Below are positions 19,101-39,226 of a stretch of 39,599 nt of DNA, piece after piece. The stretch covers positions 1-39,599 of the forward strand of contig NZ_SCHN01000029.1 in the NCBI RefSeq assembly GCF_004120195.1. The letters run 5' to 3'. The stretch is from Enterovibrio baiacu. GTDB lineage: Bacteria; Pseudomonadota; Gammaproteobacteria; Enterobacterales; Vibrionaceae. Each line of letters starts with the position of its first letter. Positions within the stretch are counted from its first letter, which is position 1. Below the pieces are notes generated by a model that saw nothing but the letters and a program-made list of their open reading frames with translations, did no database searches and was not told the DNA's origin. The translations under genes were made by a program, and so were the position numbers.

Positions 19101-19628
19101 ATGCAGTATCTTGAATTGTTTTCTACGGAAGAACTTTTAGCATTAGCAGCACTTGATCTAGAGAAAGAACAGCTTGATCAGGGCTTGCAAAAATTAAAAT
19201 ACCTCACAAAACAGAGTGTTGTTTCTGATGAGTTAGACTCAATGCTCGGTAGTGTATATGCCAAGCTTCGGTTGTTTGATTCTGCGGCAGAACATTACGC
19301 TCTTCTCTTAGATAGGACGCCTTCTCGCCTTCATGAAAGGTTTCAACTTGGGATGGTTTATCGAGAAATGAATGAACTCGAGAAAGCCGCCGAATGCTGG
19401 GACGTCGTGTTGAAAGAAGATGGCACTTATCCTCCAGTTTTGTTTCACAAGGCTCTATTGCATCTGACGATAGAAGACGTGTCTGAATCTAAAACGCTGC
19501 TAAACAAATTGATAGCGTCAGCAGACTCAGATAACTACTACGTTGAGCGTGCGCGCAATGTGCTTGAAGACATTAATTTGTCAGAGAGTGAGCCTAAGCC
19601 AACAACGTCTATCGACCAGGTTCACTAA
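19101..19628 (+). CDS. Small TPR-repeat protein, first gene of the operon
   Basis: The product has 175 residues, with no signal peptide or membrane segment, and consists of helical pairs of the TPR type (SMLGSVYAKLRLFDSAAEHY, RFQLGMVYREMNELEKAAEC). It is the first gene of the flagellar-type operon and is followed 10-16 bases later by a second TPR gene. Its architecture and one segment closely resemble the last gene of the same operon (38615-39226), where KFQLGVAYFFSNDIGNAE aligns with RFQLGMVYREMNELEKAA. In injectisome systems, small TPR proteins such as LcrH/SycD and YscG act as chaperones for translocators or needle subunits. A similar role for this protein is inference. The ribosome binding site is weak. 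Confidence 0.8.
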   Translation: MQYLELFSTEELLALAALDLEKEQLDQGLQKLKYLTKQSVVSDELDSMLGSVYAKLRLFDSAAEHYALLLDRTPSRLHERFQLGMVYREMNELEKAAECWDVVLKEDGTYPPVLFHKALLHLTIEDVSESKTLLNKLIASADSDNYYVERARNVLEDINLSESEPKPTTSIDQVH

Positions 19629-19638
19629 AGGTTCACGT

Positions 19639-20775
19639 TTGACTATGTCGATAGAGCGTATGCAGCAGTATTTGGCGCTCGACCCTGGTAACTCATTGTT
19701 AGCCTGTGATGTTGTTGAAGCATTGGCGAAAATGGGTGACTTCGAGGGGGCGAAGGAAGCATTAAATACAGCTCTCACACATAACAATAAAGATGCTCAT
19801 CTACTCAGTTGGAAAGGGCATATTTCTCTTGCGTTGAAAGACTATGATGAGGCTATCTCAGCCTACGGTGATTTGTTTTCTGAAGGTTATGACCAGTCAG
19901 GCTTGAAGATAAATTGCGCACTTGCTCATTTCCAAAAGAAAGCGTTTGCAGAGGCAAATGAGCTACTTGATGACATTGAAGGGCTCGACGTAAAAAATGG
20001 TTTGATGAAGGCAAGATGTTTAGCACACATGGAGCATATTCCTGAAGCCATTACGCTAACTCGAGATCTTTTGACTCAGTGTGACTCAACAGAAGAAGCA
20101 GATGTGCTTGGTGCTTTAAGTCTATTTTATGTTGACGATGCATTGTACGAAGAGGCTGATAAATACCAAGCGTTAGCGTTAGAGATCGATGCTGAACAAA
20201 CCGATGCTCTGGTGACTGCTGCCAGTTTGGCTCTTTATAGGCTCGATATGAACACTGCAGAGCAGAAAGTTTCTCGCTTGCTGTTGATGATGCCAACGAG
20301 TGGCCGAGTTTTGGCGATGAAAGCGCTCATCCATATGTATCGTCAAGAATTGGTAGAAGCGATTTCTACTTACGAGCTAGCATGCAAAGAAATGCCGGAT
20401 CATGTTGGTAGCCGAGTCAACCTCGCGTGGTGTTTTTTCGCGACGGGTGATTTGGATACTGCGGAGAAAACGTTTAATGAAGCGGTTGAAATAGAACATA
20501 ACTTTGCTGAGTGCCATGGTGGTTTAGCCGTTGTGAAAGCCTATCGTGAAGACTGGAGTGCTTCTAAGCAGTTAGCTAAGAAAGCGTTAAAACTTGATGC
20601 TCAATGTGCTTCTGCTCTTTTTGCGCGTTCGCTTTATCTAAAAGTGAAGGGGATGGATGAGCAAGCGGAGGCGATCATGAATAGTGTTATGTCTTTCCAA
20701 TCAGAGCTGGCTGAGCAAAACCTGAGTGAAACGATCACTCTTAACTTTTTAACCAAGCAAAAGCTAAATGGATAA
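19639..20775 (+). CDS. Large TPR-repeat protein preceding fliQ
   Basis: The product is about 376-378 residues of tandem TPR helices (roughly nine or ten units, for example EALAKMGDFEGAKEALNTAL, KGHISLALKDYDEAISAYGD, NLAWCFFATGDLDTAEKTF). It has no signal peptide or membrane segment, so it is probably cytoplasmic. I prefer the TTG at 19639, seven bases after an AAAGG site, or the in-frame ATG at 19645; the frame is open further upstream but would overlap the previous gene by about 90 bases. Its end overlaps the fliQ start by eight bases, which suggests translational coupling to the export gate. The role is unknown; a scaffold, chaperone or substrate-sorting protein would fit. Confidence 0.8.
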   Translation: MTMSIERMQQYLALDPGNSLLACDVVEALAKMGDFEGAKEALNTALTHNNKDAHLLSWKGHISLALKDYDEAISAYGDLFSEGYDQSGLKINCALAHFQKKAFAEANELLDDIEGLDVKNGLMKARCLAHMEHIPEAITLTRDLLTQCDSTEEADVLGALSLFYVDDALYEEADKYQALALEIDAEQTDALVTAASLALYRLDMNTAEQKVSRLLLMMPTSGRVLAMKALIHMYRQELVEAISTYELACKEMPDHVGSRVNLAWCFFATGDLDTAEKTFNEAVEIEHNFAECHGGLAVVKAYREDWSASKQLAKKALKLDAQCASALFARSLYLKVKGMDEQAEAIMNSVMSFQSELAEQNLSETITLNFLTKQKLNG

Positions 20776-21031
20776 AGACGCTGCGAGCTTTCTACTCAGT
20801 GAAATGATGAGTACAGCATTTCTTGTTTGTGGCCCTATTTTATTGGTGGCTCTCGTCGTTGGATTGGCAGTGAGTATTATTCAAGTAGTAACGCAAATAC
20901 AGGAAATGACATTAACCTTTGTTCCAAAAATGTTTGCTGTGGCGCTTATTATTATGGTGATGTCCGGTTGGATGCTTGGTGTATTAACAGAGTTTACCAT
21001 TTCGCTTTTTAAGTATGCTTCGAGTTTGTGA
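20768..21031 (+). CDS. fliQ: Flagellar-type export gate protein FliQ
   Basis: This 87-residue protein has two hydrophobic helices (about 15-40 and 52-78) and the conserved family core VGLAVSIIQVVTQIQEMTLT followed by FVPK. FliQ joins FliP and FliR in the helical export gate of the flagellar and injectisome type III apparatus in the inner membrane. Its length is normal (about 89). The start overlaps the TPR gene and its end overlaps fliR (GTGA). Its usual partner fliP is not upstream but at the far 3' end of the operon, an unusual arrangement. Confidence 0.95.
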   Translation: MDKDAASFLLSEMMSTAFLVCGPILLVALVVGLAVSIIQVVTQIQEMTLTFVPKMFAVALIIMVMSGWMLGVLTEFTISLFKYASSL

Positions 21032-21810
21032 TTGATAATGAAGTAGCCATTGACTGGCAAAACTATATTAGTGTCTTCTTTTTGATCCTCTGTAGGGTCA
21101 CACCTCCTCTTGTATTTAGGAGTATAAATCCACTTTCAATGTTGCCGCCTTATATAAAAGTATTGGTAACGATTGTTTTCTCTCTGGTTATTTTATTCAG
21201 AGTGGGTGATGACAATATGATTATGCGCGCTGTACAGCTAGATGGTACGGCATTGGCGGTAGCGTGTCTAATCGAGTTTGGAATTGGATTAATATTATGG
21301 TTTGCATTGCTTGCGACGTATGGCGCGATTTATACATTTTTGCGCGTGTTAGATATGCAAGTGGGCTTCAACCCCATGGGTATATTTAACCCGTCGATGA
21401 GCGAGTCTGATCCTATATTGACCCGCGTTGTCCTTGTGTTTGTTTTTCTGTTGTTTTTTATAACAGATATGCATTATTTTATTCTTCTTTCATTGACTCA
21501 ATCGTTAAGCGTTTTTCCAATTTTAAGTGGGTTTGGTGAGCCGGATTTGGATATGTTGATTGCACTGTTCTCTTCCCAGTTTATGCTTTGTTTGATTTTG
21601 GTTTTACCCATTATGGTTTCTATTTTTTGGGTTGATTTAGTGTTAGGCATGTGTAGCCGGGTTATGCCACAAGTGAACATATATTTTGTGGGTTTGCCGT
21701 TAAAAATTGCTGTGGCATTCATTATTCTAGGCCTTGCATCACGACATATCACTAATGTGTCTGAGGAGCTATTTGATAACGTCGTAAGGTATTGGCAGGC
21801 CTTGTACTGA
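21028..21810 (+). CDS. fliR: Flagellar-type export gate protein FliR
   Basis: The product has 260 residues and is almost wholly hydrophobic with about six membrane spans, the usual FliR size and pattern (RVTPPLVFRSINPLSMLPPY, QVGFNPMGIFNPSMSESDP, PIMVSIFWVDLVLGMCSRVM, QVNIYFVGLPLKI). It completes the FliPQR gate. It starts with GTG overlapping the fliQ stop codon by four bases, so the two are translationally coupled. The MPQVNIYFVGLPLKI segment is the strongest family signature. Confidence 0.95.
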   Translation: MIDNEVAIDWQNYISVFFLILCRVTPPLVFRSINPLSMLPPYIKVLVTIVFSLVILFRVGDDNMIMRAVQLDGTALAVACLIEFGIGLILWFALLATYGAIYTFLRVLDMQVGFNPMGIFNPSMSESDPILTRVVLVFVFLLFFITDMHYFILLSLTQSLSVFPILSGFGEPDLDMLIALFSSQFMLCLILVLPIMVSIFWVDLVLGMCSRVMPQVNIYFVGLPLKIAVAFIILGLASRHITNVSEELFDNVVRYWQALY

Positions 21811-21828
21811 CAAATTTATAGAAGGGGC

Positions 21829-22893
21829 ATGTCGTTGGCTACGGAAGAAAAAACAGAAAAAGCAACAGACTATAAACTCCGTAAAGCCAGAGAAAAAGGT
21901 CAAGTATCCAAGAGCATGGATGTAACATCCACAGCCAGTTTACTGGTGACGTTGATCATGGTTATGGCAATGATTTCCCATGTCGGTATCGTCGTTCTTG
22001 CAACGACATCGGACGTTTTTTTGTTGGCAGCGAATCTGGATGTGACCAGTAGTCTCGATTGGTTACTCAACAAACTTTTTAACGCCTACTTGTCGGCGTT
22101 AATGCCAGTTTTTCTCACCGCGATTATTTTTGGTGTACTCATCAACTTGCTACAAACTAAGGGCGTTTTCAGTTTTCATCCTTTAAAGCCAAATATTGGA
22201 AAGCTTAATCCTATTAAGGGACTAAAAAAACTCTTTTCGATAAAGTCGCTTTTTGAATTGGCAAAGAATATTCTTCGTTTAAGTTTTATCTCTGTTATGG
22301 CTTGGTATTTGTTTTATGACGAGGTTCTCTATATCCCAGATAATTCTGGGCTTTCAGCTTGGTTGATACTCGAAAGAACGCAGGTTTTATTTGGTAAGAC
22401 TGTGGCTCTTTTTATCCTGACTATTTTACCTTTCACTTTGTTTGATTTGATTTTTCAAAATTGGTCATTTGCAAAAGAAATGCGAATGACAAAGAAAGAA
22501 CTTAAAGATCAGTATAAAAGCCAAGATGGCGATCAGGAGATAAAGCAAAAAAGAAGGCAGCTCCAAAAAGAACTCGGTTCTAAAGTTGGTTCTCTCACCA
22601 ATGTGTCTAATGCGGATGTGGTTATTACCAATCCAACACATATTGCTATTGCACTAAAGTATGACGAAGAAACAATGACAGCGCCGAAAGTTATTTCTAA
22701 AGGGAAAGGGCCGATAGCAGAGGCAATAAAAGAAATAGCAAGAGAACATCGTATTCATACGAAAACGAACATTCCGCTAGCCAGAGCGATTTATAGAAAA
22801 ATCCGGATAGGAAGGGAGATTCCACCTGAGTTTTATGACGAGGTGTCGGAAATCTATAAGTGGTTATTGAAAAGTAAAAATGCCAATTTGTGA
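21829..22893 (+). CDS. flhB: Export switch protein FlhB with autocleavage NPTH motif
   Basis: The product has 354 residues: an N-terminal EEKTEKAT...RKAREKGQV signature, four membrane spans, and a cytoplasmic domain with the NPTH autocleavage site at about residues 268-271 (VVITNPTHIAIAL). In the family, cleavage between N and P is needed to switch substrate specificity from rod/hook to late substrates, so retention of the site suggests that a switch still exists here. A GAAGGGG site precedes ATG 21829 too closely; the TTG two codons later has better spacing, so the exact start is uncertain. It lies 18 bases after fliR. Confidence 0.96.
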   Translation: MSLATEEKTEKATDYKLRKAREKGQVSKSMDVTSTASLLVTLIMVMAMISHVGIVVLATTSDVFLLAANLDVTSSLDWLLNKLFNAYLSALMPVFLTAIIFGVLINLLQTKGVFSFHPLKPNIGKLNPIKGLKKLFSIKSLFELAKNILRLSFISVMAWYLFYDEVLYIPDNSGLSAWLILERTQVLFGKTVALFILTILPFTLFDLIFQNWSFAKEMRMTKKELKDQYKSQDGDQEIKQKRRQLQKELGSKVGSLTNVSNADVVITNPTHIAIALKYDEETMTAPKVISKGKGPIAEAIKEIAREHRIHTKTNIPLARAIYRKIRIGREIPPEFYDEVSEIYKWLLKSKNANL

Positions 22894-22907
22894 AGTAAGG
22901 TAGTCAT

Positions 22908-24929
22908 TTGTTTAAGCAGTATTTTCTAAAAGATTGGCATAGTAATTTATTCATCATCGGTGTTGTACTGATCTTGATGGTGATTTTTCTGCCGATTCCG
23001 CCGTCGTTGTTGGATTTTCTTCAAATCATCAACTTCAGTGTCGCTTTGCTCATTCTTTTGCTGACATTCAGTACAGATAAGCCACTGAGCTTTTCTACAT
23101 TTCCTTCCATTATATTGATTGCGACATTATTTCGGCTCGCGCTCAACATCTCTGCAACGCGACTTATTTTAGGCGAGGGTGATGCAGGGGAAGTGATAGG
23201 CGCTATTGGTGAGTTTGTTGTATCCGGCAACTATGTGATCGGGTTTATCGTTTTTATCATTCTTGTTGTTGTTCAGTATGTGGTTGTTACTAACGGTGCC
23301 CAGCGTGTGGCAGAGGTTGCTGCCAGATTTACGTTAGACAGTATGCCGGGCAAACAAATGGCCATTGATGCCGATATGAATATGGGTCTCATTGATGCGG
23401 AAGAAGCTCGGACGCGCCGCTCGAATATTGAAAGAGAAGCCAGTTTCTATGGTGCGATGGATGGTGCCACAAAGTTTGTAAAAGGTGATGCGATTGCAGG
23501 CATCATCATCATCCTGATCGACATTATCGGTGGTGTCACTATCGGCGTGATGCAACACGATCTTACGTGGGGTGAGTCTCTAACTAAGTATTCGTTGCTA
23601 ACAATTGGTGATGGCATTGTCACCCAGATACCATCGCTCATCATCGCAGTTGCGACAGGTATCATCATTACGCGCGCGGCGACTGACACTGAACTTAGCC
23701 GAGAGATAGGGCGTCAAATTTCCTCTCATCCTCGCACACTGATTTTGGTCACTCTTGCGTTAATAGGCGCACTATTTTTGGATGGTCTTCCTACCATTCC
23801 AATCCTTGTTGTCGCTGTCTTCTTTGCAGTTTGTGTTTGGTGGGCAATCAGAAGCAAAGAACATGAAACCGATATTGAGATTGAAAGCGCGGAGAAAGAA
23901 GATCTTGCGGACATCATCAAAGTGTATCCACTCGAGGTGCGACTGGGTGCGTCCCTCAAATCCCTAAGCACCTCGCATCAATGGAACCTAGGAAAACGTC
24001 TGGAAGCTTTGAAAAAGGTTGTTGCTAAAGAGTTTGGTTTTATTTGTCCAGAGATCAAATTTACCGAAGATGAATTGCTGAGGACTGATGATTATGAAAT
24101 CCATATTCATGGTTCTCGTGTTGGCAAAGGCACGTTAAAAACAGACAAGGTGCTGGCGATTGGCCATACCGACGTTCTTTCTCAACTTGAAGGTGAAACG
24201 ACCAAAGAGCCAGCCTATGGATTACCCGCTCTTTGGATCGATAGTGCTGCGCGGGACTTGGCACAAAGTCAATCCTGTACGCTTGTTGAGCCTGAAATGG
24301 TCGTTTTCACGCATATTTCTGAAACCGTGAAGAATAACCTTCATGAAATTATTTCCCGTAAAGATATCGAGCAGATCCTTATCTCTTTGAGGCAGGACAA
24401 GATATCAATCGTGGATGAGATCGTGCCTAACTTGCTCACGATCTCGGATATTCACCGTATCTGTCGCATGCTGCTGACTGAGAAAGTCAGCATCCGTTAT
24501 ATGGAGCTGATCCTCGAGACACTGGCCGAGCATGCGGCTCAGGAAAACAAAGACATTGATAAGTTAGTCGAGAAGGTACGCGAGCGCTTAGCGTTGCGAC
24601 TTTGTGAACGTTATCTCGATGAAAACGAACAGCTGAATGTTATCACTATGTCCCCTCAGCTGGAGGCCATGCTTAAACGTACGCTGCGTGGCGAGGCGTC
24701 AGGCGCATTCAACATAGATAGTGTACTGAAACAGCTGGTCTCTCACTGTGAAGAGATTCTTTCAAAAGGAATGGAACCCGTACTGCTATGTTCGGGAGCT
24801 ATCCGTTCGCCACTTAGGAAGATCACGGAGAGAGTGGTTCCTAAACTCGCGGTGATCTCAGCTCAGGAAGTCCGTGGTGTGAAATCAGTCCAAACTATTG
24901 GAAAGCTCACGTATGAGGAGAACGCGTAG
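22908..24929 (+). CDS. flhA: Export gate protein FlhA
   Basis: The product is 673 residues, close to the usual 690. An N-terminal membrane domain of about eight spans contains the FHIPEP family signature at about residues 133-160 (ARFTLDSMPGKQMAIDADMN), followed by a cytoplasmic domain from about 320 that includes EVRLG and RYMELILETLAEHA segments. FlhA forms the nonameric ring that accepts chaperone-substrate complexes and couples export to the proton motive force. It begins with TTG preceded by TAAGG, and ends overlapping the start of flgF (TAGTG). The complete cytoplasmic domain argues for active substrate recognition. Confidence 0.97.
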   Translation: MFKQYFLKDWHSNLFIIGVVLILMVIFLPIPPSLLDFLQIINFSVALLILLLTFSTDKPLSFSTFPSIILIATLFRLALNISATRLILGEGDAGEVIGAIGEFVVSGNYVIGFIVFIILVVVQYVVVTNGAQRVAEVAARFTLDSMPGKQMAIDADMNMGLIDAEEARTRRSNIEREASFYGAMDGATKFVKGDAIAGIIIILIDIIGGVTIGVMQHDLTWGESLTKYSLLTIGDGIVTQIPSLIIAVATGIIITRAATDTELSREIGRQISSHPRTLILVTLALIGALFLDGLPTIPILVVAVFFAVCVWWAIRSKEHETDIEIESAEKEDLADIIKVYPLEVRLGASLKSLSTSHQWNLGKRLEALKKVVAKEFGFICPEIKFTEDELLRTDDYEIHIHGSRVGKGTLKTDKVLAIGHTDVLSQLEGETTKEPAYGLPALWIDSAARDLAQSQSCTLVEPEMVVFTHISETVKNNLHEIISRKDIEQILISLRQDKISIVDEIVPNLLTISDIHRICRMLLTEKVSIRYMELILETLAEHAAQENKDIDKLVEKVRERLALRLCERYLDENEQLNVITMSPQLEAMLKRTLRGEASGAFNIDSVLKQLVSHCEEILSKGMEPVLLCSGAIRSPLRKITERVVPKLAVISAQEVRGVKSVQTIGKLTYEENA

Positions 24930-25600
24930 TGGAAAATGTGTCTGAAATTGTTGCTTCGTCGATCACCCGTAATTTAGATGCGTTGGAGCGAATTAGCAAC
25001 AATACGCAAAACGTGACAACCGTCGGGTTTAAATCGCGGTTACATGGTCAATCATCCGAAAGTACTTCAATGGCAACATCCATCGATATGTCTCAAGGCG
25101 AGTTAAGACAGACCAACCGTTCTCTTGATTTGGCAATTAATGGTTCAGCCTGGTTTGTGCTCAAACAAGGTGACAGCCTTTACCTTAGCAGGAATGGTCA
25201 GTTCCGCCTGACGGGAAATGGGCAGGTGATTGATGGTAAAGGGCGTATTTTGCAGGGCCAAAATGGTGATGTCTTTCTTGACTCTTCCAATGTTTCAATC
25301 TCTGGCAGTGGAGAAATTTCGGACCTTAACGGCGCGCTTGATCAACTATTACTGGTGTCTCCTTCCGCCATGACAAAGGGTCAATACATCGGCGGAGAAT
25401 GGCATGTTAATCCTTCTACCACATTGGACTTTGACGCTTCTAGTACGGTTCTCCAGGGATATTTAGAACAATCAAACGTTGATCCTTCAACAGAAGTTCT
25501 CGAAATGATGTCAGCGAGACGACATGTGGAAACGATGCAAAAAACAATCGTTGCTTATAACGAAACCCTCGGTAAAGCGATCTCAGAATTAGGTAAATAA
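24929..25600 (+). CDS. flgF: Proximal rod protein FlgF
   Basis: This 223-residue protein belongs to the FlgE/F/G family: N-terminal helix with ISNNTQNVTTVGFKS, the middle signature GELRQTNRSLDLAINGSAWF, and a C-terminal helix with QGYLEQSNVDPSTEVLEMM. FlgF forms part of the proximal rod across the periplasm. The start is GTG overlapping the flhA stop codon. The N-terminal ANxxTxGFK motif is somewhat altered (NNTQNVTTVGFK). It pairs with flgG immediately downstream, as in ordinary flagellar loci; assignment as FlgF rather than FlgG rests on order and divergence. Confidence 0.88.
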   Translation: MENVSEIVASSITRNLDALERISNNTQNVTTVGFKSRLHGQSSESTSMATSIDMSQGELRQTNRSLDLAINGSAWFVLKQGDSLYLSRNGQFRLTGNGQVIDGKGRILQGQNGDVFLDSSNVSISGSGEISDLNGALDQLLLVSPSAMTKGQYIGGEWHVNPSTTLDFDASSTVLQGYLEQSNVDPSTEVLEMMSARRHVETMQKTIVAYNETLGKAISELGK

Positions 25601-25601: not shown

Positions 25602-26363
25602 ATGATTGATGCACTAGCAAATGCGGAGCTAGCGTTAAGAACGCACCAAAAGCATATCGACATGATTTCAAATAACGTGTCGAACATTAATACGCCGGGA
25701 TACAAAGCAAGTACACCGGTCTTCAATAGCCTTGTTTCTGAAGGTGCTAATCCAAACGCGGCAACATCAGCGACCAGTGGAAGTGGTGTTGAAATCAGCG
25801 ATGAAATCTATCGATTCGACAACGGTGAGTTTAAATTCACTGGCTCTTCGCTTGATCTCGCTATTCAAGGCAATGGCTTGCTTGAAGTCGAGCTAGATAA
25901 TGGAGACTACGCCTACACGCGAGTCACTTCTCTTAGAAAACTCGAAGATGGTTCTTTGGCCACAGTGCATGGGCACAAGCTAGCAGCAGGTATTGTTGTG
26001 CCACCAGATGTCTCTGAAATTCAGATTTCGAGTGATGGCATCGTTAACGGAGTGATTCAGGGAGAACCTGAACCTCTTGAATTAGGGCAGCTTGAACTCG
26101 CTTTATTTGATTCTTATGAGTCGTTGGAAGCGAGAGACGGTGGATTGTGGTACCGCACCGAGAGTGCAGGACAGATGCAGTATCTCTTACCAAGCGAAGA
26201 AGGTGCAGGAACGATTCTTCAGGGCTTCACTGAGATGTCTAACGTGAACATGATTGAAGAAATGGTCTCCTTAATGGCAGCTCAGCGCGCTTATCAACTT
26301 AACTCGCGTGTTATTCAAACCAGTGATCAGATCCTCGAAACCATCAATAACCTAACGCGGTAA
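25602..26363 (+). CDS. flgG: Distal rod protein FlgG
   Basis: The product has 253 residues, near the usual 260, with the N-terminal MISNNVSNINTPGYKAS motif, the GEFKFTGSSLDLAIQGNGLL signature and the C-terminal MSNVNMIEEMVSLMAAQRAY helix typical of FlgG. FlgG forms the distal rod through the peptidoglycan and outer-membrane ring zone. It starts one base after the flgF stop codon. Its full-length, well-conserved state suggests that a rod is still assembled. Confidence 0.93.
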   Translation: MIDALANAELALRTHQKHIDMISNNVSNINTPGYKASTPVFNSLVSEGANPNAATSATSGSGVEISDEIYRFDNGEFKFTGSSLDLAIQGNGLLEVELDNGDYAYTRVTSLRKLEDGSLATVHGHKLAAGIVVPPDVSEIQISSDGIVNGVIQGEPEPLELGQLELALFDSYESLEARDGGLWYRTESAGQMQYLLPSEEGAGTILQGFTEMSNVNMIEEMVSLMAAQRAYQLNSRVIQTSDQILETINNLTR

Positions 26364-31123: not shown

Positions 31124-31481
31124 TTTCTTGATGCTTAAATCTTCAGCAAAAGTTCGTGAAAAAGTACTCGCGCGTTTTAATGCAGAAGAGAAAGATCTGG
31201 TCATGAAGGAGCTTGAAGTCACACCTCTTTACTCTGCGGATCTCCTTCGATCTATGCAAAGCGCGATTGTGGAAGAAAGCAACAAACCTGCGCTTATTCA
31301 CAAACTAGAGAGCAAAGCTCCCGAAGAACCACAAAACAACAGGTCAACGTTGCTTGATTGGGTCATAAACAGCACTTGGCTCAGTATCAATGATAGAGAT
31401 GCTGCTTCAGAGTATCTGGATGGACTTGATAGCTTCGCGTTGAAAACCCTCACTGAATACGCAGAACTAGATAATGAATGA
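31101..31481 (+). CDS. fliG: Miniature FliG-like protein lacking the torque domain
   Basis: The gene occupies the fliG slot between fliF and fliH, but the product is only about 126 residues instead of about 330. The N-terminal segment LIYSFLMLKSSAKVREKVLA plus RFNAEEKDLVMKEL resembles the N-terminal FliG domain, which binds the FliF tail. The middle EHPQ motif and C-terminal charged torque helix have no counterpart. I chose TTG 31101, four bases after AGGAGAGG; an ATG at 31131 and an upstream TTG at 31086 are also in frame. It overlaps the fliF end. It could serve as a FliF-FliM adaptor, comparable in position to SctK of injectisomes. Confidence 0.6.
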   Translation: MSKTLIYSFLMLKSSAKVREKVLARFNAEEKDLVMKELEVTPLYSADLLRSMQSAIVEESNKPALIHKLESKAPEEPQNNRSTLLDWVINSTWLSINDRDAASEYLDGLDSFALKTLTEYAELDNE

Positions 31482-32142: not shown

Positions 32143-33451
32143 GCAATTGCTTTCAGAGTTGACACTTGGAGTGAGTGACACTCACCTTTCAAGTGCTTTT
32201 GGAAAAGTCACCTCTATTAAAGGCGGATACATTCAATCAACGCATCACAACTGTTCGTTTGGTGAATCAGTTCGAGTTGGCAAAGCGGATAGAAGTATTG
32301 AATGCGAAGTGATCTCGGTGGATGAGAAATATTGTCTTCTTGCCCCGCTTAGAAGTATTGACGGTTTATCTATTAATGATCCTGTTTCTTTCAGCGGAAA
32401 GCGCCCTCAACTGACATTATTGCATCAACCCTTTGGGAAAGTCCTTGATGGGTTTGGAGATGTGGTATCGGATGAAGAATCGTCATTCGGCGAGAGCCAA
32501 ACATTATTTCAAGAGCCAGTATCACCCATTTATAAGGAAAGCCTTTCTGAGCAACTGACGACTGGTTCGCCGATCATCGATAACATTCTACCTTTGTGTA
32601 AAGGCCAGAAGGTTGGGGTGTTTGCGGGGTCAGGTGTGGGTAAATCTACCTTGTTGAACAAGCTCTACACCAATGTGGATGCGGATGTAAAAATCTACGT
32701 AATGATTGGTGAACGGAGCCGCGAAATCGTTGATTTTTACCAATCAGAAATGGCGTCGAAAGATCAAAACAAGAAAACCATTTTAATCGCGTCCAGTACG
32801 GAAGATTCACCCGTGCTCAAGAAACGAGCCGTATATATCGCGATGGCTTATGCTCGCCGCTTTTCTCAGGCGGGCAAATCAGTGGCTGTGGTGATTGACT
32901 CGATCACACGTTTGGCTCATGCCATGCGAGAGATTGGCATTTCTCGCGGTGAGTTACCTGTTGCGCGAGGCTACCCACCTTCCGTTTTTTCTGAGCTTTC
33001 TCGTTTAGTTGAGCTCGGGGGCAACTTCAAGAACCAAGGCAGTATTACCACCGTGATGTCCATTCTTGTTGATGGTGATGATGTCAATGAACCTATCTCT
33101 GACTACTTGAGAGGTGTATTGGATGGTCACTATGTGTTGGATCGGAAATTGGCAAACCTTGGTTACTACCCTTCTATCAATATTTTGAAGAGTCGCTCTC
33201 GCACAATGGGGGATGTATTCAATCGCACTGAGCTCGAGTTTGAGCGAAGAGTGAGAGAGATATACGGCGAATATCATGAGGTTGAGGATATTGTCAAAAC
33301 GGGGATCTATCAGAAGGGTTCAAATGCGGGTATAGACGAAGTGATTGATTTGAAGAAATCGCTTGATAATGAACTCTATACCTGGCCTGGAAGCGTAAGC
33401 AAAGCGCTAAGAGAGAAAGTTGATGCCTTTACCCAGAATCATCAAGATTAA
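32132..33451 (+). CDS. fliI: Type III export ATPase FliI
   Basis: The product has 439 residues with the Walker A motif GVFAGSGVGKSTLL at about 163-176, Walker B in VAVVIDSITRLAHAMREIG, and the conserved RGYPPSVFSELSRLVE and SILVDGDDVNEPISDYLRG segments. FliI is the hexameric ATPase that unfolds or releases substrates at the export gate. ATG 32132 is preceded by AGGA at a good distance; a GTG two codons earlier is in frame. It overlaps fliH and its end overlaps fliJ. All catalytic motifs appear intact. Confidence 0.97.
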   Translation: MQFEQLLSELTLGVSDTHLSSAFGKVTSIKGGYIQSTHHNCSFGESVRVGKADRSIECEVISVDEKYCLLAPLRSIDGLSINDPVSFSGKRPQLTLLHQPFGKVLDGFGDVVSDEESSFGESQTLFQEPVSPIYKESLSEQLTTGSPIIDNILPLCKGQKVGVFAGSGVGKSTLLNKLYTNVDADVKIYVMIGERSREIVDFYQSEMASKDQNKKTILIASSTEDSPVLKKRAVYIAMAYARRFSQAGKSVAVVIDSITRLAHAMREIGISRGELPVARGYPPSVFSELSRLVELGGNFKNQGSITTVMSILVDGDDVNEPISDYLRGVLDGHYVLDRKLANLGYYPSINILKSRSRTMGDVFNRTELEFERRVREIYGEYHEVEDIVKTGIYQKGSNAGIDEVIDLKKSLDNELYTWPGSVSKALREKVDAFTQNHQD

Positions 33452-33857
33452 GCGCTTACAGCAGGATGTTGAGATCCAGAAAAGGATGAAATCGCAGCAA
33501 TCCCTGTTAGAGAAACGTTCGAGTGTTGATGCCGAATTGAATGACCTAAAACAACACATTCCATTGCTAAGCGATATCTCGTCTGAATGCTATGCCAACC
33601 CGCGTTTACATGAGCTTTCGTTAGACCAGATTGATGAAGTCATGACGACCATCAACACGCTCGAAGCAGAGTCTAGTGATTTGGAAAAATTGATAGAAAG
33701 ATCACAAGAGAGACTCAGAAGAGAGAGGGCGATTAAAGAATCTCTCAAAGAACTGGAAAGCAAGGTTGAGCAAAGCCTTCAACCTTCTGTTTCTAGCGAA
33801 CAGGTTGACGAACTGGTAACGCAGCAGGCGGGGATGATTCAACATGGAAATTCATAG
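33423..33857 (+). CDS. fliJ: Export coiled-coil stalk protein FliJ
   Basis: The product has 144 residues and is nearly all charged helical coil (KIKRLQQDVEIQKRMKSQQS, LEKLIERSQERLRRERAIKE), as in FliJ/SctO, which projects into the FliI ring and contacts FlhA. The order fliH-fliI-fliJ-fliK supports the call. The ATG lies inside the end of fliI, and a TTG one codon earlier is also possible. The sequence itself is too low in complexity to identify it without context. Confidence 0.82.
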   Translation: MPLPRIIKIKRLQQDVEIQKRMKSQQSLLEKRSSVDAELNDLKQHIPLLSDISSECYANPRLHELSLDQIDEVMTTINTLEAESSDLEKLIERSQERLRRERAIKESLKELESKVEQSLQPSVSSEQVDELVTQQAGMIQHGNS

Positions 33858-34581
33858 CGATTTTGGAACATTGGTTGAGCCAGAAAGAAGAGATGTTGCA
33901 ACCAATAAAGACAATCATGACTCATTTAAGCAGTACTTAGAGCGGGAAACTGTCAGCGAACCTGAATTTACGGAAATAGAGGAATATGTATCTGATGACA
34001 TTTATATTTCTCTTCTTGAACAGGATTTTTCTAAGACACTGGATGAGAAAAATATTGATGTAAACGTTGAAATTGCAACGCTGCTTAATCAAGCATTCAT
34101 TCAAAGCGCTTTTGCCACTGGTCAGTACAAAACGATCTCATCTTCTGAATTTGACTCCGGCACTTTTTCACCAAATCTGGTGGGGACGAACACGCAAACG
34201 GCGGGTGTTAAAGACGGCAATATCACATGGGTAAAGAACGCATCTGCGATGTCATCAAATAGCATTCATCGATCGTTTACTGCTGGTGTTCACATTAACA
34301 CTGAACGCAACGTTGAAAATGCCAGCATCAATCGTTCCGAAACTCACAGACAACAGGTTTTGCTCCCATACAGACCTATCGATGATTACGCAAAGGTATT
34401 TATCAAAGTCGTCGAGCATGGCAAGAATCTAAAAATCATGTACAGGAATTTTGAAGATGTTGAAGGGGTATCTCTGAAACAACAGCTCTTCAATTCAGAT
34501 TCTTCTCTTCCACACGTTCCACTTTCATTGACAATTAATGGCAAAACGGAGGTATTCAATGGATATCCCGCCAGTAGGTAG
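33844..34581 (+). CDS. fliK: FliK-like hook-length control protein (by position)
   Basis: The product has 245 residues. It sits between fliJ and flgD, the classical fliK position. The N-terminal half is acidic, rich in Ser and Thr and looks poorly structured. The C-terminal half has mixed beta/helix character (KVFIKVVEHGKNLKIMYRNF), as in the globular FliK C domain, but the usual LRLxPExLGxVEV signature is not seen. FliK/SctP proteins measure the hook or needle and trigger the FlhB switch. Retention of such a gene with a cleavable FlhB would fit length control. It overlaps fliJ by 14 bases and flgD by about 23. Confidence 0.55.
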   Translation: MEIHSDFGTLVEPERRDVATNKDNHDSFKQYLERETVSEPEFTEIEEYVSDDIYISLLEQDFSKTLDEKNIDVNVEIATLLNQAFIQSAFATGQYKTISSSEFDSGTFSPNLVGTNTQTAGVKDGNITWVKNASAMSSNSIHRSFTAGVHINTERNVENASINRSETHRQQVLLPYRPIDDYAKVFIKVVEHGKNLKIMYRNFEDVEGVSLKQQLFNSDSSLPHVPLSLTINGKTEVFNGYPASR

Positions 34582-34987
34582 TGCTGCAACCCAAACCAGC
34601 CAACTCAATAATGCATTGGGGCAGGATGATTTTATTGAGCTGTTTTTGACCCAGTTAAGGGCGCAAGACCCTCTTGAACCTGTTAACAACCAAGACTTTC
34701 TTGCTCAAATGGCTCAATTTTCGTTGCTCGAGTCAAACCGAGTGGCAAATGAGGAATTGGCAAGCCTCCGCTCTCTTGTTGAAGCCAATCAAGGAATAGG
34801 TTTGATTGGCAAAGTGGCAGAGACCCAATCTGCTGGTCAATTGGTTGTTGGTGAGGTGATCTCGGTTGGCTTTAACACCACAGGCACCGTCGTGTCTATG
34901 AAGGTGACAGATGCGAGTGGTGAAGAATTTTTTCTGAACGAATTGCCCGTTTCCCAGCTTACCCGCGTTTACAACGAAGAAAATTAA
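34559..34987 (+). CDS. flgD: Short hook cap/scaffold protein FlgD
   Basis: ATG 34559 has a well-placed CGGAGG, giving 142 residues; the frame extends seven codons upstream. The N-terminal signature FIELFLTQLRAQDPLEPVNN followed by DFLAQMAQFSLLESN is that of FlgD. The second half, about 75 residues, contains a single small beta domain (IGLIGKVAETQSAGQLVVGE). Typical FlgD is 220-240 residues and has an extra Ig-like domain, so that domain is missing here. FlgD caps the growing hook; a short cap might reflect a hook of simpler form. Confidence 0.92.
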   Translation: MDIPPVGSAATQTSQLNNALGQDDFIELFLTQLRAQDPLEPVNNQDFLAQMAQFSLLESNRVANEELASLRSLVEANQGIGLIGKVAETQSAGQLVVGEVISVGFNTTGTVVSMKVTDASGEEFFLNELPVSQLTRVYNEEN

Positions 34988-34996
34988 GGAGCGGCT

Positions 34997-36139
34997 ATGT
35001 TTCAGTCTTTCTATAACGGCTTGTCGGGGATGAAAACAAGCTCAGAGGCTTTGGACATTGTCAGTGACAATGTGGCTAACATGCAAACGCCTGGCTTTAA
35101 GTCAAAAGAAGTCTTCTTTTCAAATGTTGAATCCGGCGACAAAGGGCTAGGAGCCCGTGTTGCATCTGAATCTGTTAAATATACTGATGGTGAGGTATCA
35201 CAAACGGGCAATGTTACGGACCTCTATTTAGATGGGCGTGCAATGTTTGTTTTGAGGGATGGCACGAACCAGTATTACACGCGAGCGGGCACTTTTACCC
35301 TGAATGATGACAATGTGCTGGTGGATCGTCTCTCTGGTTATGAAGTCGCGGGTATCGACAATCGTGGTGCTATAACAGACATCAAAATTGGTGACAAAGC
35401 CGCAATTGCTGCTGTGGCGAGCACAGAAGCAACATTGACGGGAGAAATATCCACCAAAGATCCCAACGTTTCATTAGAGGGGATGGGCTATTTTGATAGC
35501 GAGGGGGAGTATAAAGAGCTTTCTACGTTTTTAGAGTACAACGCCGATGACGAAACTTGGGGTGTCAGTATTACAGATATTGACGGTAACGAAGTTGGTC
35601 AGGGAACGCTGGAATTTGATTTAGCAGGCACACTTACAGTTGGAAGCAATGAGGTTGTTGCCACGCTTGAAGGTGGGCAACTTATTACGGTGAGCTTTGG
35701 TGAACCAGGGTCCCTGACAGGACTGACACTGCGAGAAGAAAACGAAACATCAACCCTAGAACTAACAGAAATCGACGGTTCGGCAGAATCACCGTATACA
35801 GAGCTCCGTTTTGAAGATGATGGCAATGTCGTTTTGATCTATGGCAACGGTGATGAAGCGTCAATTGGCAGGGTTGCGGTAGCTAAAGTCGACAACTTTG
35901 ATGATTTTAGTGTCAAAGATGGTCATCTTCTTGTTGCTGAAAAAAAACCGGAGATCACTGCAATAGGTCGAGGCGTAGACGCGAGCATTATCTCTGGCTC
36001 TCTTGAACTGTCTAATGTCGATCTGGCGGAGGAGTTCGGCGATATGATGGTTATTCAGAGAACTTATCAAGCGAGTTCTCGTGTAATGACGGTGTCCAAT
36101 CAGCTTCTCGAACAACTCTACAATAGTACGGGTGGTTAA
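34997..36139 (+). CDS. flgE: Hook protein FlgE
   Basis: The product has 380 residues. It starts MFQSFYNGLSGMKTSSEALD, with SDNVANMQTPGFKSKEVFFS as the family motif, and ends with SNVDLAEEFGDMMVIQRTYQ ASS, the FlgE C-terminal helix. Between them, an acidic Thr/Glu/Gly-rich region forms the surface domains. FlgE builds the curved hook. In this operon it is the most distal structural protein found; no junction, cap or filament gene follows. GGAGCGG upstream gives a good ribosome binding site. The stop codon overlaps the fliM start (TAATG). Confidence 0.94.
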   Translation: MFQSFYNGLSGMKTSSEALDIVSDNVANMQTPGFKSKEVFFSNVESGDKGLGARVASESVKYTDGEVSQTGNVTDLYLDGRAMFVLRDGTNQYYTRAGTFTLNDDNVLVDRLSGYEVAGIDNRGAITDIKIGDKAAIAAVASTEATLTGEISTKDPNVSLEGMGYFDSEGEYKELSTFLEYNADDETWGVSITDIDGNEVGQGTLEFDLAGTLTVGSNEVVATLEGGQLITVSFGEPGSLTGLTLREENETSTLELTEIDGSAESPYTELRFEDDGNVVLIYGNGDEASIGRVAVAKVDNFDDFSVKDGHLLVAEKKPEITAIGRGVDASIISGSLELSNVDLAEEFGDMMVIQRTYQASSRVMTVSNQLLEQLYNSTGG

Positions 36140-36855
36140 TGTCTGGCACCGAAATCATTCAACTAAGTAAAAAGCGATTTGTCTCATTCATCCTAGATGA
36201 AATGGTGTGTTGTTTTCCTTCCCTTTCCAACGAGACAGTAACCATCACTGAAGGCGTGAGCAGTGAAGCATTACGGCATTTCGAAGGAAGCATCCAAATC
36301 TCTTTAGGAAACGCCATTCGGTTCGATTTTGACCGCGCAATGGTTCAGAATCTGATGAAGTATTTCTTTGGTGATACTTATCAGCAACAAAACAGAGATT
36401 TTGAGGCTTTTTTTCTAAATAAGAAAATTAAGCAATGGTTCAGTGAGTCTGGTTTAGATAAGGATAGGAAGTTAGATGAAAAATCTGACTTCAAAGAGAT
36501 ATATCTCAATAGCGAGGATGGGGTTATTCATGTCTCAATTAACTCGGATTTTATTGAGACTATTAATCAAAAAATAGGTTTTTCAACCTCTCGGAAACTG
36601 TCGGTAAAAGAAGTTTCTGATAGTATAAAATCAATGTTAGTAACGTTAAATATAAAAATAAACAATGTAAGTTCGACGGTTGGTGTCTTGGGTAATATTG
36701 AACCGGGAATGAAAATAAAAACCAATCAGAAACTAGAAAATGGCTTGATGATCGAGCATCGAAGCACTGTTATATCAAAAAATACCTTCGTGACACTTGA
36801 AGAAGGTGGACCATTGTTAACTCTAGGAAGTGTGGAAAGTGACTACAGAAGTTGA
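36139..36855 (+). CDS. fliM: Short FliM-like C-ring protein
   Basis: The product is 238 residues (FliM usually about 330). The C-terminal part, about residues 165-225, resembles a SpoA domain (TLNIKINNVSSTVGVLGNIE ... TVISKNTFVTLEEGG). The N-terminus (MSGTEIIQLSKKRFVSFI) lacks the LSQDEIDALL motif that binds CheY-P, so chemotactic switching seems excluded. The middle domain is reduced and diverged. The order flgE-fliM-fliN-fliO supports the call. It overlaps fliN by about 17-26 bases. It could also be described as SctQ-like. Confidence 0.7.
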   Translation: MSGTEIIQLSKKRFVSFILDEMVCCFPSLSNETVTITEGVSSEALRHFEGSIQISLGNAIRFDFDRAMVQNLMKYFFGDTYQQQNRDFEAFFLNKKIKQWFSESGLDKDRKLDEKSDFKEIYLNSEDGVIHVSINSDFIETINQKIGFSTSRKLSVKEVSDSIKSMLVTLNIKINNVSSTVGVLGNIEPGMKIKTNQKLENGLMIEHRSTVISKNTFVTLEEGGPLLTLGSVESDYRS

Positions 36856-37087
36856 AAATAAACGTCTAAATACATTCTCTGATGTACCTGTTTCGTTAGA
36901 GGTTAAGATCGGCGACGTAGCGTGTACCCTTGGTGATATTATGAAGTTGTCTCCAGGGAGTGTTATTAGCACCAATGTAAAGCTGTATGAAAAGGTCGAA
37001 CTATTGATGGATGGTAAAACTATTGCTAAAGGGATTCTTGTTGAAGAGGACGGTTTCTTTGCTGTCGAAGTTGCTGAAGTAATCTAA
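36839..37087 (+). CDS. fliN: Short FliN-type C-ring protein (SpoA domain)
   Basis: The product is about 82-85 residues and consists of little more than one SpoA domain (DVPVSLEVKIGDVACTLGDI, MKLSPGSVISTNVKLYEKVE). FliN forms the base of the C ring, where it contacts FliH and receives substrates. GTG codons at 36830 and 36839 are both in frame; the second has AGGAAG at eight bases and is preferred. The N-terminal extension of usual FliN (about 137 residues) is missing. It overlaps fliM and its stop codon overlaps fliO (TAATG). Confidence 0.88.
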   Translation: MTTEVENKRLNTFSDVPVSLEVKIGDVACTLGDIMKLSPGSVISTNVKLYEKVELLMDGKTIAKGILVEEDGFFAVEVAEVI

Positions 37088-37365
37088 TGCCTTTTAAGCC
37101 GGAGACTAATGTTTTTAGTTTTGAATATATTATACTGATTTCGATACTTATTGTTGTATTTTTTATCGCAGTATATTTCAAGAAAAAAACATCTAAAGAC
37201 AATAAGATACTGAATGTTGAATCTAAAGTTGAAGTGCTAGATAAAATCTATCTTGATAACAAAACAAAACTTTTTGTTGTTAAGTGCCATGGTAATGAAT
37301 TCTTTGTAGTTAGTAACGCAAATTCAGTGTCGATTAGCGAAAAAATAGATAAAAAAGAAATATAA
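37087..37365 (+). CDS. fliO: Export gate assembly protein FliO
   Basis: The product has 92 residues: one membrane span at about 12-33 (FEYIILISILIVVFFIAVYF), a basic stretch, and a small cytoplasmic beta-rich domain (SKVEVLDKIYLDNKTKLFVV). This is the FliO layout. FliO helps assemble the FliP ring and is specific to flagellar systems, so it supports a flagellar, not injectisome, origin. It precedes fliP as usual. The region from here to 38620 is visibly more AT-rich than the start of the operon. Confidence 0.85.
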   Translation: MPFKPETNVFSFEYIILISILIVVFFIAVYFKKKTSKDNKILNVESKVEVLDKIYLDNKTKLFVVKCHGNEFFVVSNANSVSISEKIDKKEI

Positions 37366-37390
37366 ACTTCTTTGTATAAGTTAAATTTTT

Positions 37391-38032
37391 ATGGATATAG
37401 ATCTAACGCATCCAATAGTACAGTCATTTATCTTTGTTACAGCATCAGCATTTGTCCCTTTATTGCTTGTATCTGTGACCAGTTTTACTCGGTATTTGAT
37501 TGTTCTTTCACTACTTAGAACTGCATTAGGGTTACAACAAACGCCCCCAAATATAGTTGTTATTTCATTGGCACTTTTTATGAGTGTGTTTACAATGGCG
37601 CCTGTTTATATGGATATAAAGAGTGAGAGTTATGATAAATATAATGAAGGTATAGTCTCTCAGGATGTCGCTATAGATAACGGAGTATCAGCTTTTTCAG
37701 AGTACCTCACGAGTAAAACCACAGAAAAAGATTACTATTTCGTTAAAAGTCTAGGCCAGAGTGAGGACAATAGTGCTCAGAGTATTCTCCCTAATGAACT
37801 TGCTGTGCTCATACCTGCATTTATGCTGACGGAATTGAAGGCTGCGTTTCAGTTTGCTTTTATCATTTTTCTCCCATTTGTATTAATTGATTTGATCGTT
37901 GCGAGTGTGTTGATGGCGTTAGGTATGATTATGCTTCCGCCAATATCAATTTCACTTCCTGTTAAACTACTTGTTTTTGTTCTCATTGATGGTTGGACAC
38001 TATTAGTGGGTAGTTTAATTAGTGGATTTTAG
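37391..38032 (+). CDS. fliP: Export gate protein FliP
   Basis: The product has 213 residues with strong family signatures: TSFTRYLIVLSLLRTALGLQ followed by QTPPNIVVISLALFM, and AFMLTELKAAFQFAFIIFLP with MLPPISISLPVKLLVFVLID. FliP starts the FliPQR gate. Typical flagellar FliP has about 245 residues with a cleaved signal peptide; here the coding region begins almost directly at the first core helix, as in injectisome SctR. fliQ is not downstream but 17 kb upstream at the other end of the operon. The ribosome binding site is weak. Confidence 0.97.
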   Translation: MDIDLTHPIVQSFIFVTASAFVPLLLVSVTSFTRYLIVLSLLRTALGLQQTPPNIVVISLALFMSVFTMAPVYMDIKSESYDKYNEGIVSQDVAIDNGVSAFSEYLTSKTTEKDYYFVKSLGQSEDNSAQSILPNELAVLIPAFMLTELKAAFQFAFIIFLPFVLIDLIVASVLMALGMIMLPPISISLPVKLLVFVLIDGWTLLVGSLISGF

Positions 38033-38046
38033 CTGCATTTCTTAAT

Positions 38047-38622
38047 ATGAAAGACATAACCTATTCTTCATTAGTGCTAGAAATGCTGCCGTGGTGTGAA
38101 GTCATTGCGAAAGGCTTTTTGCGTAAGCACTACTATAACAAAGAAAATGAAATTGGCGACTACGTAAATAGTGGCGTTCTTGGTCTTTTTGATGCATATA
38201 GGAATTATGACTCGAATAAAGGTGAAGTGAAACCATATTGTTTTAGATACATGTATCTTGAAATGAATAGGGTTCTTATTAGTTCAAATTCATATCAGCT
38301 AAAGAAAATCAGCTTAGGTGAGTTTGGTGAGTCATTTGGTGATTTGTCGCTACCGCACTTTCCCAGTGAGAAACTCTACTGTGGATTAGATGGTTCTTTG
38401 ACAAGTCATTATGAATACTCTGATATATTGGCTGCGGAGAGTTTAATTGTTTCTCTCTGCGTAGACAGAAAGCGTGTTGTGATAGATCACTACTTTAGAG
38501 ACGTAAAAATTAAGGATATCGCATTCTACATGGGCAAAGACCCGTCGAGAGTGTCTCAAATTCATCGGTTGGCTATAAAAGAGTTACAGGACAAGGCGAG
38601 TGGTAGAGAAAAGAATGGATAA
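38047..38622 (+). CDS. FliA-like sigma factor (sigma-28 type)
   Basis: The product has 191 residues. Region 2 resembles that of sigma-70 family proteins (IGDYVNSGVLGLFDAYRNYD SNKGEVKPYCFRYMYLEM). Region 4 has the flagellar-type helix-turn-helix (IKDIAFYMGKDPSRVSQIHR LAIKEL), close to the SRVSQLHxxAIxxL of FliA. Region 3 appears reduced, and the protein is shorter than FliA (about 240). FliA normally directs late flagellar genes; no flagellin or anti-sigma FlgM gene is seen here, so the targets are unknown. It overlaps the last TPR gene by eight bases. Autoregulation of the operon or control of effector genes are both possible. Confidence 0.8.
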   Translation: MKDITYSSLVLEMLPWCEVIAKGFLRKHYYNKENEIGDYVNSGVLGLFDAYRNYDSNKGEVKPYCFRYMYLEMNRVLISSNSYQLKKISLGEFGESFGDLSLPHFPSEKLYCGLDGSLTSHYEYSDILAAESLIVSLCVDRKRVVIDHYFRDVKIKDIAFYMGKDPSRVSQIHRLAIKELQDKASGREKNG

Positions 38623-39226
38623 TGAACTCAGCTACGAAGAAATACTGCATTTGGCTGCATACGCGGTAAATAATGGTGATCTAGCAAATGCACTAACCCT
38701 ATGTAAAAAAATAGATATTGAAGCAACGCCAGATCAGCGATTAAACCTCATCCATGCAGCTATTTTAAATCAACTCGGTATGCATCAAGAATCGATTGGT
38801 ATCTATAATGTTGTTGTGGAAAAAGACCCTGATAATGAATTGGCTAAGTTTCAACTCGGTGTTGCTTACTTTTTCAGTAATGATATCGGTAATGCAGAAA
38901 CTTACTGGCAAGGGTTGGATTATTTCGCGCATTTTGCAGAGGGTTTTTTATCGGCGAAATCAGGTGACTTTGAACAAGCAATAAAACACCTTTCGCTGTT
39001 TATAGCCAATAATGAGCAATATCCTGCTTTGAATGGGGATGCTAGCAATTTGCTAAAAGCGTTTGAAGATAAATTGGCGCGTTCAAGTACTGAGCAAGAA
39101 CCTAGCAGTGTTGAAACTCTTGATACGAACGAGCGGATTGATAGCGAGCCAAGCCCGAATTCGACAGGTAGTACTGAGACAAGTCAAAAGAACGTCTCAG
39201 CGTTATTATCTATATACAAAGAGTAA
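38615..39226 (+). CDS. Small TPR-repeat protein, last gene of the operon
   Basis: ATG 38615 gives 203 residues (five more codons are open upstream to a GTG). About three or four TPR-like helical pairs (AAYAVNNGDLANALTLCKKI, KFQLGVAYFFSNDIGNAETY, FLSAKSGDFEQAIKHLSLFI) are followed by a Ser/Glu/Thr-rich tail of about 55 residues. It is soluble, with no signal peptide. It resembles the first gene of the operon in size, repeat layout and the KFQLGxxY segment. Overlap with the sigma factor gene suggests coupled translation; a chaperone or a regulator acting on the sigma factor (as FlgM does for FliA) are possible, with no direct support. Confidence 0.8.
   Translation: MDNELSYEEILHLAAYAVNNGDLANALTLCKKIDIEATPDQRLNLIHAAILNQLGMHQESIGIYNVVVEKDPDNELAKFQLGVAYFFSNDIGNAETYWQGLDYFAHFAEGFLSAKSGDFEQAIKHLSLFIANNEQYPALNGDASNLLKAFEDKLARSSTEQEPSSVETLDTNERIDSEPSPNSTGSTETSQKNVSALLSIYKE

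Follow-up and report, generated by a model that had tools for sequence, protein, structure and literature searches.

What is the function of an operon that encodes the export apparatus, basal body and hook of a bacterial flagellum and lacks genes for filament, motor and chemotaxis? Such an operon lies at positions 19101-39226 of the stretch analysed here (hereafter the window), 39,599 nucleotides of Enterovibrio baiacu DNA (NCBI RefSeq assembly GCF_004120195.1, contig NZ_SCHN01000029.1) that open a contig of 46,990 bases, part of a draft genome of 5.37 Mb. We consider it probable that the operon encodes a non-motile, flagellum-derived type III secretion system (T3SS) dedicated to giant RHS polymorphic toxins, a reading that draws on its gene set, on a separate lineage of the export protein FlhA, and on a recurrent partnership with genes for giant RHS/YD-repeat proteins.

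The operon comprises 28 genes on the forward strand, of which 24 are flagellar-type, three encode TPR proteins and one encodes a sigma factor; neighbouring genes mostly overlap or sit a few bases apart. An earlier note on this DNA had described 24 tightly spaced flagellar-type genes on one strand with TPR genes at both ends, and open reading frames and Pfam searches confirm this description. The genes and the support for each are as follows:

19101-19628, + strand: TPR protein 1 (TPR models)
19645-20775, + strand: TPR protein 2 (TPR models, frame scanned from 19585; start set by homology to Grimontia celer)
20768-21031, + strand: FliQ (PF01313, 1e-24)
21028-21810, + strand: FliR (PF01311, 3e-39)
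21829-22893, + strand: FlhB (PF01312, 2e-105; NPTH motif present in the sequence)
22908-24929, + strand: FlhA (PF00771, 2e-226; FlhA tree)
24929-25600, + strand: FlgF (PF06429, PF22692)
25602-26363, + strand: FlgG (PF06429, PF22692, PF00460)
26364-27044, + strand: FlgA, P-ring chaperone (PF13144)
27047-27610, + strand: FlgH, L ring (PF02107)
27611-28738, + strand: FlgI, P ring (PF02119)
28751-29068, + strand: FlgB-position protein (position only; Pfam gave no match)
29068-29481, + strand: FlgC (PF06429, 6e-4, below cut-off)
29481-29747, + strand: FliE (PF02049)
29750-31123, + strand: FliF, MS ring (PF01514, PF08345)
31131-31481, + strand: FliG-position protein, 116 residues, far shorter than FliG (hhalign probability 47, FliG columns 9-193)
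31474-32142, + strand: FliH-position protein (position only; no specific Pfam match)
32126-33451, + strand: FliI, export ATPase (PF00006, PF18269)
33420-33857, + strand: FliJ/YscO-like protein (PF07321, 6e-5, below cut-off)
33844-34581, + strand: FliK-position protein (position only)
34562-34987, + strand: FlgD, hook cap (PF03963, frame scanned from 34538)
34997-36139, + strand: FlgE, hook (PF00460, PF06429)
36139-36855, + strand: FliM-like protein, 238 residues, without an EIDALL-type CheY motif (Foldseek to FliM; hhalign probability 92.7)
36830-37087, + strand: FliN (PF01052)
37087-37365, + strand: FliO (PF04347, 0.009, below cut-off)
37391-38032, + strand: FliP (PF00813, 4e-66)
38047-38622, + strand: FliA/WhiG-like sigma factor (TIGR02937, 8e-10, and TIGR02479, 3e-9, both below cut-off)
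38600-39226, + strand: TPR protein 3 (TPR models)
39298-39341, + strand: strong terminator at the operon end (stem-loop, 19-pair stem)

Sixteen of the genes are backed by Pfam at the curated cut-off (FliQ, FliR, FlhB, FlhA, FlgF, FlgG, FlgA, FlgH, FlgI, FliE, FliF, FliI, FlgD, FlgE, FliN and FliP), FlgC, FliO and FliJ (the last through the YscO model) match below it, and the FlgB, FliH and FliK labels are based on position; at these three levels the gate, ATPase, ring, rod and hook set of the earlier note stands, as does its reduced C ring, consisting of FliN, a FliM-like protein and a short, weakly FliG-like protein. The FliM-like protein has no Pfam match, and with its structural model (mean predicted local distance difference test score 70) FliM structures ranked first in Foldseek (E 3e-5, probability 1.00), at a template modelling score of only 0.3. 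No relative of the FliG-position model was found in the PDB, and 'FliG' is therefore kept as a positional label. In a search of the window for FliA-type promoters, the number of loose matches was 41, where 28.7 were expected, and none was seen directly before the operon or before the second of the RHS genes described below.

None of the 28 genes has a Pfam match to flagellin, FliD, FliS, FlgK or FlgL, nor to FlgM, FlgN, FliL, Mot or Che proteins, in agreement with the absences reported previously, and no secretin match was found among them; FlgH and FlgI are there instead. The contig extends 7.4 kb beyond the window, with one open RHS frame all along and some masked bases, and outside the operon it holds no filament or motor gene. 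A genome-wide search located an ordinary flagellar cluster on contig C28, with a second FlhA, other polar-type genes and three flagellin-family matches, which by our reading of the sequences are two flagellins and FlgL; the one MotB_plug match lies on contig C12. Because of this ordinary cluster, the motorless operon is additional in its genome.

The operon belongs to a family whose members were located by scanning one genome per species for a FliF pattern, with 476 confirmed and the best 80 of these kept, so that the list is no census. The 31 member genomes considered here are 28 of 46 further syntenic or partly syntenic loci, joined by the Enterovibrio genome itself (G000), G. celer (G008) and G091. 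Loci with this core order were found in Grimontia, Motilimonas, many Legionella, Dyella, Rhodanobacter, Oleiagrimonas, Pleionea, Parendozoicomonas, Marinifaba and Microbulbifer. Three of 100 relatives, own genome included, encode operon-type FlhA, namely G000, G008 (94%) and G091 (52%), the last of which comes from another family of the order, shares the core order, and has neither flagellin, nor MotB_plug, nor any other FlhA. In Legionella loci no sigma factor match was obtained and the TPR match lies at the end of the operon, not at its start; a TPR2-type match opens many member operons outside Legionella. In a quick maximum-likelihood tree of FlhA (81 of 94 rows kept, 13 ordinary rows dropped), 45 of 45 operon-type rows fall on one side of one branch with a Shimodaira-Hasegawa-like approximate likelihood ratio of 99, set apart from ordinary FlhA of the same species and from other sampled copies; the labels of rows marked lateral or distant are tentative, and L. 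fallonii and L. micdadei are absent from the tree. This single group apart from ordinary FlhA indicates that the operon is no copy of each host's own flagellum. The operon FliF is near-identical (97%) to a protein labelled Enterovibrio norvegicus, and a plasmid search for close FliF found none, each of its 23 records being below 60% identity. G097 (FlhA 42%) was tried as a member and counted out, its short contig having FliD-, FlgK- and FlgL-like frames; this foreign-looking flagellar cluster (L041, G097:C89:1-20000) may be contamination of that genome.

Such an operon might encode a second motile flagellum, its filament and stators being supplied by a polar system, and flagellin-family genes do occur elsewhere in 24 of the 31 members. 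In 22 of these, the matches over cut-off lie on contigs other than that of the operon, which in draft genomes may still neighbour it, and in the other two the nearest match on the operon contig is about 80 kb (G107) or about 120 kb (G111) away; G111 also has a sub-cut-off flagellin-family match (23 bits) 17 kb upstream of the operon. Flagellin, FlgK, FlgL, FliD and FliS queries were the best match of none of 1,980 frames (fetched flanks together with the window, G008 and G091 pieces), and neither arrangement that the earlier note named as refuting its reading, filament and motor genes directly outside the window in the same cluster or clade members with flagellin and motAB at the operon, turned up in these searches. 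The nearest MotB_plug match to an operon FlhA, 11 kb away in Pleionea sediminis, has a MotA-like partner and a helicase-like gene; since the MotB-like protein matches PADLOC ZorB, this locus upstream of the operon (L138:4063-10941) is probably a Zorya-like defence system. The next nearest on operon contigs lie at about 45 kb (G102) and about 65 kb (G119).

Against a borrowed filament and motor, seven member genomes have no flagellin at all (G091, L. maceachernii G101, G106, G113, G116, Oleiagrimonas citrea G126 and G127), and six of them, all except G101, also have no match to MotB_plug, on which the stator scoring rests, no search having been made for MotA. In G101 the lone MotB_plug match falls below the cut-off, in a frame of 72 residues that contains a stop. 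Six of the seven have no FlhA besides that of the operon, the exception, G116, having a second, distant copy. These absences are weaker for G106, G113 and G127, because these are two metagenome-assembled genomes (MAGs) and an uncultured isolate record (G127).

The C ring points the same way, since the protein at the FliG position has too few residues to be a full FliG. In 29 of 41 member loci this frame is 116-158 residues long, under half the length of ordinary FliG (328-342 residues, n = 17 loci), and in the other 12, many of which have uncertain starts, it has 78-208 residues. Its profile matches only columns 9-193 of FliG, and weakly, and no full-length FliG with a torque domain occurs at the operon position, FliG elsewhere in the genomes not having been searched for. 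The FliM-like proteins (222-275 residues, n = 38) align to FliM from about column 110 onward. The EIDALL-type motif, the CheY-binding motif of FliM, is found near the start of none of these 38 compared with 10 of 11 ordinary FliM proteins. A second motile flagellum is thus very improbable.

The Legionella version is already in print, as an unexplained second flagellar system. A fourth flagellar region has been described in L. fallonii and L. micdadei (PMC4256840), and a second putative flagellar system (PFS2) with basal body, secretion and hook genes and without flaA or fliD has been reported in PMC5655016, the available part of which does not decide between a T3SS and a second flagellum. Our scan recovered L. 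worsleiensis and L. quateirensis, both listed for PFS2 in PMC5655016, and the present operon agrees with PFS2 in core order as well as in having basal body, secretion and hook genes without flaA or fliD. However, the portions of these publications at hand describe no RHS partner and no member beyond Legionella, and 'Rhs' is absent from that of PMC4256840.

It is this RHS partner that, together with the sigma factor, the terminator and the presence of giant RHS genes on both sides, goes beyond the features listed in the earlier note. In the window, the RHS-related features are:

1-16593, + strand: RHS1, giant RHS/YD-repeat protein, 5' end off the contig, 5,530 residues within it (PF05593, TIGR01643), candidate substrate
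14566-15015, + strand: conserved RHS module within RHS1 (alignment of 13 rows; LysM PF01476)
16603-16947, + strand: putative immunity protein for the RHS1 tip (assigned by position; Pfam gave no match)
39421-39599, + strand: start of RHS2, a second giant RHS gene that runs on to the contig end

Giant YD-repeat genes adjoin the operon in 16 of the 31 members. Five of these (G000, G008, G091, Dyella choica G109 and D. ginsengisoli G118) have them on both sides, the other eleven on a single side; the flank YD frame of G114 is interrupted by a contig end. A profile of the conserved module was also searched alongside FlhA in three genome sets, which do not include G107, G111 and G123, with a threshold of 85 bits fixed after the scores had been seen (lowest counted 88, highest uncounted 47). 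Among the relatives, all 3 operon genomes carry the module, as do 2 of the 97 others (Fisher p 6e-5). In the genus of L. maceachernii (22 genomes) it is present in 9 of 10 against 0 of 12 (2e-5), and in the family of D. ginsengisoli (117 genomes, an even sample of a larger group) in 11 of 11 against 1 of 106 (1e-14). Summed over the three sets, 23 of 24 operon genomes and 3 of 215 others carry the module (p about 1e-27, kinship uncorrected). In the Legionella set the module is not adjacent to the operon, being 1.9 Mb away on the same contig in G138 and on different contigs in the other eight genomes. G104, alone of the 24 in lacking the module, has a giant YD frame that leaves its contig before the module position. 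Targeted pieces place the module also in Motilimonas, Rhodanobacter A1T4 and Pleionea sediminis, and weaker matches of 81 and 65 bits, outside the counts, occur in L. quinlivanii and a Legionellaceae MAG. Extra module copies in the Enterovibrio genome lie at G000:C5:1423-1854 and C5:529938-530354; repeated RHS genes may be behind its broken assembly.

This partnership favours a secretion system over a bare hook-like appendage, the two functions between which the earlier note had left the choice, because giant RHS proteins co-occur with the operon. An adhesin- or scaffold-like surface appendage whose export gate builds only itself, with RHS proteins decorating it or unrelated to it, would fit the retained hook, rod and ring genes and the lack of any late-class chaperone recognised by Pfam. 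Yet it leaves unexplained both the RHS partnership and the NPTH motif retained in FlhB, which is the cleavage motif of that protein, and we regard it as improbable.

The giant RHS proteins, of about 3,800-7,800 residues, share features at both ends. An N-terminal motif of the form M-x-x-I/V/F-x-G-x-GLG, or close to it, opens 12 starts, those of RHS2 and of 11 of the 18 YD frames examined, from Enterovibrio-type, Grimontia, Motilimonas, Dyella-type, Parendozoicomonas and Legionellaceae genomes; by our reading nothing in this shared start is an obvious Sec signal. Among the remaining seven frames, one opens Sec-signal-like and six have no motif-type start in the stretch at hand. Toward the C-terminus, 13 aligned copies have a module in which LysM is followed by a TFKPYN-like stretch, a run of prolines, a cysteine and a hydrophobic stretch; a variable tip comes next. 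The module is 84% identical between the Enterovibrio-type and Grimontia proteins, whose ends differ, and a conserved module with differing ends is as found in polymorphic toxins. The tips may be toxic, although none of four scanned matched a Pfam family. Of three downstream genes scanned, a single one belongs to the SUKH/SMI1 family; it follows the RHS gene in G. celer and occupies the same slot as 16603-16947. Inserts in the RHS proteins vary, with weakly SMC-like helical stretches in the window copies and immunoglobulin-like domains in G091.

Two further sequences show other forms of RHS gene. A YD-repeat protein of Pleionea sediminis (L226:5132-10252), with a Sec-like start and no module match, is on its sequence a different RHS class. 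In Parendozoicomonas (L225), the YD frames 11015-14902 and 1-11241 (- strand) overlap in different reading frames, the first having the N-terminal motif, and the RHS gene looks split.

How, then, would such proteins leave the cell? No PAAR domain was found in the two RHS N-terminal parts scanned, and VipA, the sheath protein of the type VI secretion system (T6SS), is absent from 23 of 40 operon genomes; the T6SS therefore cannot be their general route, even though the Enterovibrio genome has one VipA match. We infer that export by the machine that the RHS genes travel with is the simplest reading. The export gate, ATPase, MS ring, rod, P and L rings and hook would form this machine, with a C ring stripped of torque and chemotaxis parts, and the giant RHS/YD-repeat polymorphic toxins would take the place of the filament-class substrate. 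The RHS chain may be recruited through the short conserved N-terminal motif, a candidate signal, and would then thread the hook-basal body to be displayed or released outside. The LysM/proline/hydrophobic module would be placed just ahead of an exchangeable toxin tip, small linked genes would protect the producer cell, and the target is most likely other bacteria.

A bolder form of this proposal is quite possible but falls somewhat short of probable. The family would constitute a third type III lineage beside flagella and injectisomes, in which propeller-less hook-basal bodies, directed by an N-terminal GxGLG-type signal, thread and display RHS toxins that are single chains as long as about 7,800 residues, while the module holds the tip in the periplasm or envelope until contact, in a CdiA-like manner. 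CdiA pauses its toxin.

Several observations weigh against a secretion system dedicated to RHS toxins. In 15 of the 31 members, including all nine Legionellaceae, no RHS gene lies in the fetched flanks (a contig end cuts the flank in six of the 15), and the MAG G105, an operon member, has zero RHS_repeat matches in its genome. Three operon-free genomes carry the module, and the Fisher p values overstate the evidence because the genomes are kin. A T6SS sheath gene is present in 17 of 40 operon genomes, and substrates of about 3,800-7,800 residues would, to our knowledge, far exceed any known for a type III channel. In addition, FlhA and one other gene are each in two frames in loci L062 and L070, so decay or sequencing error does occur. 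Two of the operon-free module frames, L181 (G093) and L182 (G082), are without YD repeats and are possibly orphan tip cassettes; the third operon-free genome with the module is G186.

The RHS-free flanks, together with an island-like patchiness (3 of 100 relatives), would suit a secretion system dedicated to other effectors, for instance against protists or animals, with the RHS genes as co-inherited island neighbours that have their own route out. We consider this unlikely, since in the Legionella sample the module occurs only with the operon although the two are not adjacent, the two RHS N-terminal parts scanned lack PAAR, the shared start lacks an obvious Sec signal, and flank clustering (1,980 frames, single linkage, antisense included, partly inspected) gave no other convincing widely shared family. 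Its two widest clusters, spanning six and four lineage groups, consist of short frames, and the three members placed are antisense to operon or RHS genes. The third-widest covers six genomes. The split genes, the missing genes and the divergent FliG and FliM positions could likewise indicate a decaying flagellar remnant. However, the frames of the window are intact, the 31 member FlhA matches are without an internal stop, gene order is conserved across families and members have the same reductions, which makes decay highly unlikely.

A dedicated RHS exporter of this kind can be set against known systems. With motile polar or lateral flagella, the operon shares a homologous export gate, rod, hook and P and L rings, but it lacks filament, motor and chemotaxis genes, has a short FliG-position protein and forms a separate FlhA group. 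Like injectisomes, including Myxococcales systems, it has an export gate without motility genes and a proposed role in protein delivery. Unlike them, it has no secretin and keeps FlgF, FlgG, FlgD, FlgE and a sub-cut-off FlgC; the available text of PMC3459982 defines a non-flagellar T3SS as a cluster that has a secretin and lacks three flagellum-specific genes, which excludes this operon. T6SS-delivered RHS effectors similarly combine a YD-repeat body with an exchangeable C-terminal end and, as in G. celer, an immunity-type neighbour, whereas the present proteins reach about 3,800-7,800 residues, have no PAAR in the parts scanned and occur in sheath-less genomes.

Buchnera basal bodies have been proposed to be exporters. 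The likeness to them is one of description, not of sequence: flagellar basal-body and export genes are kept in the small symbiont genome, according to the part of PMC8109811 available. A survey of polymorphic toxins (PMC3482391) lists secretion routes and, in the text at hand, names no flagellum-derived route for RHS proteins; it asks whether an RNase encoded beside Firmicutes flagellar operons leaves via the flagellum, a case set apart by description, with another toxin fold, another phylum and ordinary flagellar operons. Large Myxococcus Rhs proteins carry signal sequences and take a different route, as far as the accessible text of PMC10433427 goes. No description of an RHS link to a flagellum-like operon was found in the literature searched, which lay outside most subscription papers and bioRxiv.

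If the proposal is true, a toxin exporter has evolved from flagella and exists, in most of the genomes studied, alongside an ordinary flagellar set, and giant RHS proteins have a way out of the cell other than the T6SS. The printed Legionella question, T3SS or second flagellum, would thereby receive an answer, for a kind of system spread across several gammaproteobacterial families and with a likely cargo, giant RHS proteins, named by association.

The surroundings of the operons contain other recurrent genes. Between RHS1 and the operon, positions 17244-18239 (- strand) encode a Y1/IS200-like transposase (PF01797, E 0.003, below cut-off), and frames resembling this transposase also flank the operons of G100, G109, G118 and G123, as well as that of G008. 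A 124-residue protein is encoded near the G091 operon (L040:18913-19287), with opposite-strand matches upstream of three Dyella operons (G109, G114 and G124).

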